From a virus: 31,966 nt of DNA. The stretch spans positions 1-31,966 of the IMG/VR virus record IMGVR_UViG_3300035183_000660. One strand, written 5' to 3'. Positions within the stretch are counted from its first letter, which is position 1, and every line of letters begins with the position of its first letter. The translations under genes and the position numbers were made by a program. The notes under the pieces were generated by a model, which made no database searches, was not told the DNA's origin, and saw only the letters and a program-made list of their open reading frames with translations. Positions 3,879 through 5,732 of this stretch are shown one piece after another.

Positions 3879-5732
3879 TTACTTCCCTTCGCTGTTGATG
3901 AACCGCTCCATGCTCCTGGATACGGCCCGGTCAATCTCATCGTTGAACACGCCAGCCTCGGCCACGATCTCGGCCGTCAGGTCAATGATGTCCGGTGTGG
4001 GGGCGTCCTCAATGATGCCAATCACCGCCGACATGTGCTTGCCGAGCGCGGCCTTCCGCACCAGTGCAGCGAATCCCTCGATGTCCTTGTTCCGGAGCAG
4101 TCCCAGCGCCTTCGTCTTGATCGCCTCGTCAGCAGCCCCACGCCGCGGCGTCAGGTCGCTCGCATCACCGCCTTGCCGGAGACGGTCAATCGCCTTGCTG
4201 GCCTCGGCCTTCGTCATGGTGCTGAAATCGTAGTCGTCCGGATCGTGTCCCTTCCGCTTCAAAAGGTCACGCAGGTAATTGATCTGCCCCTGCGTCGCGG
4301 CGTCGCCCTGCTGGCGCGGTGCCGCCTGCGCCCGTTCCTCCTGCTGATGTACCACCCGCACTGGCCGTTCAACCGGGCTGTCAACCGGTGCCTGGTACTC
4401 AGTCTCGCCTCCCCACTCGTGACCAGAGAATTGCGTGCCGAAGCCAAGCGCTGCGAGCGCCCGCCCCAGCGCCCGCGTGTTCCCGGTGATGTAGGCAGCA
4501 TCATCGGACATCGCCACGAAGGTCCCGTACTCCGTCTGCGGGCACCACACCTTTGCCTCAACGGACTCGATCGCCTTCAGGTGGCGCGTCGTCACCCGGC
4601 TCTTTCCCAGCACCAATGCCTGGCGTGTGCCAGAGATCATGCGGGGATGCACCGAGTGTCCCGTGAGCACCGCGAGCATCATCCACGTGTACCTGGCAAT
4701 CTCCAGACGGTTCGTCATCACGACTGATGATGATGACGAGTAGTACTTCGCCATCTCAAGCATCATCACGAAACGCGCTTCCGGCGATAACCGCGCAGGG
4801 AGCGACAGGAAGTCCTCTGGTTTCTTGATGCCAGCGTGGTCAAGGAGCCTGCGCACAAGCTTTGTGGGCACGAGAAACACGGCCTGTTTCCCAGCGGGAA
4901 TCACAACCCGCTTGGTCCCTGACGGGCCGGCAATCTCCCGTGGCTTCGTCGCCAGCGTGCTCCTGCTGACCACATGGGCAAACGACCGGGGGATGGTGAG
5001 AAGATCAGCGCGCCGGCTTGAGACGCGCATGACGAACGGCCCATCAAGACTGGCGGCCAGATTGGACCGGCCCAGCAAGAGCCCGAGCAGCGCGGCCTCA
5101 TCACTGGTCATGTCAATAATGTCCGTGTTGCCCTGATCATCATGCGGTGCAGCCAGGACAAGATTCTTGTTCCTGGCGATGTTCATGAACGGCTTCAATT
5201 CACGCCTGGGACATGCAGGATCGCACGACTCCACGACCCAGGAATGGTCCGGAGTGCACGCCATGTCAATCCCGGCCGCGGTGAACCGTTTGACAGGAGC
5301 GTTGTTGTAGACAACAACGCGCTGGAGCGGCGCCCAGACGGTCTTGTTGCTGTTCATGTCGTAGACGAGAATGTCTTCCCCTGGCTGGAGCTCGTGGTAA
5401 GACCGGGGTCCCGTCTTGGTAACGGCCTTGACGTTGACCGGCACGCACTCGGCCTTCTCGATGTAGTCGGTGAAATCCGAGGCGGTCTCCGAGCCCCACC
5501 CGGTAGCTGACGCGCCGTTGGGCAGGGTCACCTTGGCAGAGAAGATGGCGCGCGGCGATTCCTTGCCGCCCATCGCCTTGCCTGGACCGGCGTCAAGGTG
5601 TTCCAGGTTGGTCTCGATGATGGCATCAGGATACTCGGTCCGCAGCCAGAGGAGACGGTATTTCGTCTCCAGATAGTCCTTGCCGCTAATTTGCGTGATA
5701 TAGAGTGTTGGGTCGAACTTGCTCTCACCCAT
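3879..5732 (-). CDS. Rad52-like ssDNA-annealing protein interrupted by an intein
   Basis: 617 residues from ATG 5730-5732, with AAAAGGAGT upstream. Residues 96-418 are an intein. Joining 1-95 to 419-617 gives a 294-residue mature protein. The joined sequence reads SDFTDYIEKAE|TRALGRALAALG, a conserved helix seen in phage annealing proteins of the Rad52 superfamily (compare the DUF1071/Sak3 pattern of W..L...YPDA followed by an A-G-L helix). The N-terminal part fits: KYRLLWLRTEYPDAIIET. The C-terminal part has TQGQINYLRDLLKRKGHD...MTKAEASKAIDRL, a small helical module frequent in phage recombination and replication proteins. Expected role: annealing of single-stranded phage DNA during replication or recombination. 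Family assignment is moderate; intein assignment is strong. Confidence 0.75.
   Translation of the reverse strand: MGESKFDPTLYITQISGKDYLETKYRLLWLRTEYPDAIIETNLEHLDAGPGKAMGGKESPRAIFSAKVTLPNGASATGWGSETASDFTDYIEKAECVPVNVKAVTKTGPRSYHELQPGEDILVYDMNSNKTVWAPLQRVVVYNNAPVKRFTAAGIDMACTPDHSWVVESCDPACPRRELKPFMNIARNKNLVLAAPHDDQGNTDIIDMTSDEAALLGLLLGRSNLAASLDGPFVMRVSSRRADLLTIPRSFAHVVSRSTLATKPREIAGPSGTKRVVIPAGKQAVFLVPTKLVRRLLDHAGIKKPEDFLSLPARLSPEARFVMMLEMAKYYSSSSSVVMTNRLEIARYTWMMLAVLTGHSVHPRMISGTRQALVLGKSRVTTRHLKAIESVEAKVWCPQTEYGTFVAMSDDAAYITGNTRALGRALAALGFGTQFSGHEWGGETEYQAPVDSPVERPVRVVHQQEERAQAAPRQQGDAATQGQINYLRDLLKRKGHDPDDYDFSTMTKAEASKAIDRLRQGGDASDLTPRRGAADEAIKTKALGLLRNKDIEGFAALVRKAALGKHMSAVIGIIEDAPTPDIIDLTAEIVAEAGVFNDEIDRAVSRSMERFINSEGK
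4479..5447 (-). other. Intein (323 residues) with class 3-type Trp/Cys/Thr signature
   Basis: The insert begins with Cys96 and ends with Asn418, followed by Thr419. Block A: CVPVNV...GEDILVYD. Block B: GIDMACTPDHSWVVES with T160, H163 and W165. Block F: VWCPQTEYGTFVA with C397. Block G: AAYITGN with T416, G417 and N418. W at B:12, C at F:4 and T at G:5 is the diagnostic triplet of class 3 inteins, which splice through the block F Cys. Unusually, residue 1 is Cys, and the penultimate residue is Gly rather than His. The middle (about 205-360) resembles a LAGLIDADG endonuclease with lost acidic residues. Confidence 0.88.

Follow-up and report, generated by a model that had tools for sequence, protein, structure and literature searches.

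An intein with an N-terminal cysteine and a Trp-Cys-Thr triplet in a phage annealing protein, and the lineage that shares its make-up

Introduction

Class 3 inteins are defined by the absence of an N-terminal Cys together with a Cys at position F:4 (PMC7891396), and they are monophyletic; class 1 inteins that carry Cys F:4, in contrast, are polyphyletic (PMC3196547). A virus record of 31,966 bases (IMG/VR IMGVR_UViG_3300035183_000660), the whole of which is called here the window, contains an annealing protein gene interrupted by an insert that carries the Trp-Cys-Thr (WCT) triplet of class 3 and nevertheless begins with Cys. A preliminary description had taken it for a class 3 intein, perhaps of dual mechanism or transitional. 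The locus thus raises the question of whether such a combination is an exception, and which of the two cysteines would initiate splicing. Here we describe by computation the anatomy of the insert, its lineage, the empty site in homologous proteins, the loss of the catalytic acids of its endonuclease and the fold of the extein, and we weigh the routes by which the intein might splice.

Results

The interrupted gene and its product

The gene is a minus-strand open reading frame (3879-5732) whose translation (3882-5732) gives 617 amino acids without a stop, and it is phage-borne, since genes for replication initiation, endolysin, tape measure and major head protein lie elsewhere in the window. 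No nucleotide relative of bases 1-25000 of the record was found among 50,697 phage records. The sequence flanking the junction is ...DYIEKAE↓TRALGRALAALG... (the arrow marks the insertion point) and, as the insert comprises residues 96-418 of the 617, the spliced product would have 294 amino acids (Table 1). The joined flanks match proteins of Thermus phages P23-45, P74-26, TSP4 and G20c (about 40% identity, E down to 1e-13), in which the site is uninterrupted and reads EKAE↓TKAIGRAL; the insertion is in frame. An artefact of assembly or annotation is ruled out by the open frame, the correct empty site and the similar GC content of intein and extein (0.60 and 0.63).

In the model of the P23-45 homologue, gp48, residues ~20-110 are well predicted (overall pLDDT 72.7) and adopt the beta-beta-beta-alpha core of Rad52/Sak-like proteins. 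Its best match is human RAD52 (Z 9.9, rmsd 2.9, 90 residues aligned), the comparison with phage 80alpha Sak gives Z 7.3, and the matches among viral models include annealing proteins/SSAP, ERF and SAK3. The assignment of the extein as a Rad52-fold single-strand annealing protein of the P23-45 gp48 type is well supported at the level of this predicted fold, and a phage annealing protein is also what the preliminary description had named. The insertion point falls inside a predicted helix of gp48 (residues 88-103, at T94), so that the conserved helix is split at KAE↓T, as had also been described. In PHROGs the host protein belongs to phrog_27776, of unknown function, which appears to be a family of Rad52-fold annealing proteins. 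Within window 3879-4300 (minus strand) the C-extein has a weak DUF3072-like segment (residues 478-520, E 7e-4, below the cut-off) and a long tail that is not common to the Thermus homologues.

Table 1. Features of the interrupted annealing protein gene, in window positions
Feature	Positions	Strand	Basis
N-extein, residues 1-95, ending ...DYIEKAE	5448..5732	minus	homologous to Thermus phage P23-45 gp48
Intein, 323 aa, residues 96-418	4479..5447	minus	alignment of relatives, model, structure matches
Block A, CVPVNVKAVTKTG, Cys1 = C96	5409..5447	minus	alignment with relatives; Cys1 in 119/119 tabulated
Block B core TPDHSW: Thr B:7 = T160, His B:10 = H163, Trp B:12 = W165	5238..5255	minus	alignment
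First LAGLIDADG motif, DEAALLGLLLGRSN, catalytic Asp-Gly of relatives replaced	5061..5102	minus	alignment; model helix 115-127
Second LAGLIDADG motif, ARFVMMLEMAKYYSSS, catalytic Asp-Gly of relatives lost	4731..4778	minus	alignment; model helix 222-232
Block F, VWCPQTEYGTFVAM, Cys F:4 = C397	4509..4550	minus	alignment with relatives
Block G end ITGN: Thr G:5 = T416, Gly G:6 = G417, Asn G:7 = N418; T419 = +1	4479..4490	minus	alignment
C-extein, residues 419-617 and stop, starting TRALGRALAALGFGTQF	3879..4478	minus	ORF translation, comparison with homologues

Splice residues and fold

Residues 96-418 are a genuine intein. Blocks A, B, F and G, the N-terminal nucleophile, His B:10, the C-terminal Asn, a Thr at +1 and a HINT fold are all present. 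The AlphaFold2 model, obtained with a 22-sequence alignment, is a confident intein fold (pLDDT 85, pTM 0.86), whose residues 1-323 match crystal structures of inteins and endonucleases (TliVMA, Z 19.5). Translation, the alignment of relatives, fold and structure matches agree with the extent given in the preliminary description. Alignments to many relatives, and to authentic class 3 inteins, were used to check the block positions. Against class 3, W165, C397 and T416 occupy the columns of that class's Trp, Cys and Thr, with C397 at F:4 in V395-W396-C397 and block G reading I415-T416-G417-N418, which bears out their assignment to B:12, F:4 and G:5; Cys at residue 1 (C96), Gly at the penultimate position (G417) and Thr at +1 (T419) are likewise read from translation and alignment. 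Block A of the window intein has Pro at position 14, a position that is Trp in nearly all relatives.

Among PDB sequences the closest is that of the AceL NrdHF intein (E 1.4e-4), whose mechanism has been shown to be class 3 (PMC7891396). When the splicing domains are compared by fold, AceL NrdHF gives Z 17.8 and the class 1 inteins Ssp DnaB and Npu DnaB give 16.6 and 16.5, values so nearly alike that the comparison cannot separate the two classes. From its complement of residues the intein is probably competent for splicing, and splicing probably occurs.

A lineage with Cys1 and Cys F:4

Scanning IMG/VR with a single protein, either the intein or the joined extein, found no close relatives; these were recovered by an alignment-based query. 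Searches with tblastn against phage and plasmid records revealed inteins of the same make-up in DNA polymerase, terminase, portal protein, tape measure protein, gp55 and a plasmid protein of unstated function. The alignment-based scan, which requires WCP at block F but imposes nothing on residue 1, gave 49 viral and 41 genomic loci. Since the N-terminal alignment was too variable for scanning, a degenerate DNA pattern was used for the second scan, and the N-terminal pattern CVP-x5-LT-x2-GWK alone, which requires Cys1 and leaves F:4 free, gave 53 loci. Both scans pooled yielded 119 distinct inteins.

Cys1 and the Trp-Cys pair at F:3-F:4 are found in every one of the 119, Thr B:7 in 115, Thr G:5 in 117 and Gly G:6 in 115. 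Position B:12 is Trp in 73 and V, F, L, I or H, mostly Val or Phe, in the other 46, and the +1 residue is Thr (53), Ser (45), Cys (20) or Ala (1). The second scan contributes 46 distinct members, 41 of them with a readable C-terminal block (the remaining five extend past the end of the locus); Cys F:4 is present in all 41 and Trp B:12 in 36. The signature of the lineage is CVP...LTxxGW, TxxHxW, VWCPxT...GT(F/W) and TGN. The only copy without Cys1 obtained from the scan conditioned on F:4, in Nocardia cyriacigeorgica (L081:3501-3710), has also lost the C-terminal splice motif and is probably a decayed intein. Among the 22 members of alignment A3, the window included, the Pfam intein model PF14890 detects one, and the NCBIfam N-terminal model TIGR01445 also detects one of the 22.

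Cys1, WCT and Gly G:6 are thus the ordinary state of the lineage to which the window intein belongs, a make-up common to more than 100 relatives, and the idea of a unique transitional form is ruled out. The same residues at the same positions in so many relatives place the triplet beyond chance, and a chance origin is discarded as well. By sequence comparison the lineage is large, mainly phage and under-annotated, with the window intein as one more member.

In one phosphoesterase-like phage protein two inteins of the lineage lie in tandem (L026:3048-3824 and L026:3888-4571). Chromosomal copies (L063, L065-L073, L075, L077-L080, L082-L090, L092, L094, L095) come mostly from Chromatiaceae, besides one Peregrinibacteria MAG and one Woesearchaeota MAG. 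These are all located at the same site, G(T/C/G)Q↓TPF, of a protein that looks like an anaerobic ribonucleotide reductase, and have Val or Ile at B:12.

Other inteins at the same site

A Fimbriimonadales MAG (SKYB14, L062) holds the nearest relative of the window intein, with 42% identity in the splicing domain and a support of 95/93 for their pairing in the tree. It interrupts a homologous extein at KAE↓T; unlike the window intein it has 181 amino acids and no recognisable endonuclease. In a Rubrobacteraceae MAG (L061) a relative interrupts a more distant extein at MAE↓T, and in three further loci (L013, L014, L023) relatives are inserted two residues upstream in similar proteins. The KAE↓T site of the annealing protein is, on these sequence comparisons, a repeated target.

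Relationship to class 3 inteins

The authentic class 3 panel was composed of mycobacterial DnaB and ten phage records. These inteins have Trp B:12, Cys F:4 and Thr G:5 in common with the window intein, but they lack Cys1 (one starts with Ser) and Thr B:7, and end in THN. The window intein, with a Cys at residue 1 as class 1 inteins have Cys, Ser or Thr there, differs from them at B:7 (Thr), F:3 (Trp), F:5 (Pro) and G:6 (Gly). In trees built from 94 alignment columns after removal of the trait columns, class 3 forms a single clade that excludes the window intein (99/97; 98/90 with the broader panel). Forcing it into class 3 costs 28 to 31 log units, with an AU p of 0.03 for the narrow class 3 panel and 0.105 for the broad one, so that the exclusion is weak by the AU test though good by support values. 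The membership of class 3 proposed in the preliminary description is not supported by these trees and residues, and its view of a transitional exception gives way to that of an ordinary lineage member. A search for a sister relation of the lineage to class 3, over three groups and 94 columns, could show none. The panel member beginning with Ser (ELK↓SLACS...THN↓T) resides in gp217 of Mycobacterium phage Littleton, a Bixzunavirus, annotated as an HNH endonuclease (L195:1054-2817).

Cys F:4 is the second commonest residue at its position among inteins (PMC4031507) and, given also the polyphyly of the class 1 inteins that have it (PMC3196547), it is not diagnostic by itself. The Thr of TxxH is generally missing from class 3 (PMC6195587), and a penultimate Gly has already been seen in class 1 inteins of mycobacteriophages (PMC5050341).

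The homing endonuclease

In most relatives both LAGLIDADG motifs end in DG or another acidic residue. The window intein has GRSN and AKYY where the DG of the relatives stands, neither motif being closed by an acidic residue. With both catalytic acids missing, the endonuclease probably no longer cuts DNA and homing is probably dead. Loss of the endonuclease with retention of the splice residues would fit a late stage of the homing cycle.

Discussion

The splicing route

We propose that the window intein probably splices by a Cys1-initiated route of the class 1 type, with Cys F:4 in place of the usual Asp. In the most likely order of steps, Thr B:7 and His B:10 would activate Cys1 to give the N-terminal thioester, the N-extein would pass to Thr419 at +1, and Asn418 would cyclise; Cys F:4, occupying the position of the catalytic Asp of most class 1 inteins, would assist, and Trp B:12 would pack the core. 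The route is favoured because Cys1 and Thr B:7, both absent from authentic class 3 inteins, are retained in all and nearly all members, while B:12 varies in 46 of the 119, even though three class 3 inteins failed to splice when Trp B:12 was mutated (PMC5222942). The open host frame, the complete set of splice residues and the class 3 clade that excludes the window intein are in agreement. On the other side stand the invariance of Cys F:4, the full triplet in most of the members chosen by their N-terminus, the class 3 AceL NrdHF intein as nearest PDB sequence, the weak AU exclusion and the small number of columns. Variation would be expected of a residue that only stands in for Asp, and the invariant Cys F:4 may therefore be a nucleophile; its conservation indicates that this residue matters too, whether as acid/base, relay nucleophile or initiator.

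Were C397 the initiator, it would attack the N-terminal junction directly and hand the N-extein to the +1 Thr, leaving Cys1 as a dispensable remnant. Such class 3 chemistry would account for the alignment of W165, C397 and T416 with the class 3 triplet, for the invariance of the C397 position and for the similarity to AceL NrdHF, and the class 3 clade does include a member with Ser1 (the Littleton gp217 intein). We consider it unlikely, as Cys1 is never lost where the C-terminus is intact, which is unexpected for a dispensable residue, Thr B:7 is kept, Trp B:12 is free to vary, and the trees place the window intein outside the class 3 clade.

Dual use of both cysteines appears less probable still. 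In such a serial relay Cys1 would form a linear thioester, pass the N-extein to Cys F:4 by transthioesterification and the +1 residue would receive it last; loss of Cys1 would then give class 3. The relay would explain why both cysteines are invariant and Thr G:5 nearly so across the 119 members, and transfer from Cys F:4 to +1 has a precedent in class 3 (PMC5222942); the conservation may equally reflect structural packing, and the trees gave no sister relation between the lineage and class 3. The more general proposal, that the lineage as a whole splices through three nucleophiles in turn (Cys1, then Cys F:4, then +1), by a mechanism intermediate between those of classes 1 and 3, and that it is the phage stock whose loss of Cys1 gave rise to class 3, is a speculation to which we give slightly less credit than to the relay in the window intein itself.

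That the intein no longer splices, the annealing protein being inactive or not needed, is very improbable: the loss of both endonuclease catalytic acids, the Pro at position 14 of block A and the fairly long branch of the window intein in the tree would fit, but the frame is open, all catalytic splice residues are present and the extein motif is intact.

Significance of the lineage

Taken singly the window intein is ordinary, and its value lies in its lineage. More than 100 diverse, mainly phage inteins retain Cys1, Cys F:4 and Thr G:5, with Gly replacing the penultimate His, and the intein models of Pfam and NCBIfam miss almost all of them. They constitute a natural panel for the role of Cys F:4 alongside Cys1, and for how class 3 could have lost its first nucleophile.

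Comparison with known systems

Inteins that mix WCT with Cys1 or Ser1 were reportedly tested by Tori and Perler in 2011, the examples being Catera Gp206, Nocardioides JS614 TOPRIM and Tfu2914, which are said to combine motifs of classes 1 and 3 as the window intein does; the mixture itself would hence be already known. The Bixzunavirus group, whose class 3 intein starts with Ser and ends in THN, is presumably that of Catera itself. The DNA polymerase inteins of phi92-like phages, such as the annotated one of Escherichia phage PaulScherrer, share with the window intein Cys1, HxW, VWCPQTE, TGN and the penultimate Gly, but they have 245 amino acids, Cys at +1 and a different host protein. Class 1 inteins with Cys F:4 resemble it in Cys1, TxxH and Cys F:4, whereas in typical class 1 inteins G:6 is His and G:5 has no conserved Thr. 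The class 3 inteins of mycobacterial DnaB and of phage RecB, TerL and helicase share, besides the triplet, Ser or Thr at +1; they differ in having no Cys1, a residue other than Thr at B:7, CI or CV instead of WCP at block F, and THN instead of TGN.
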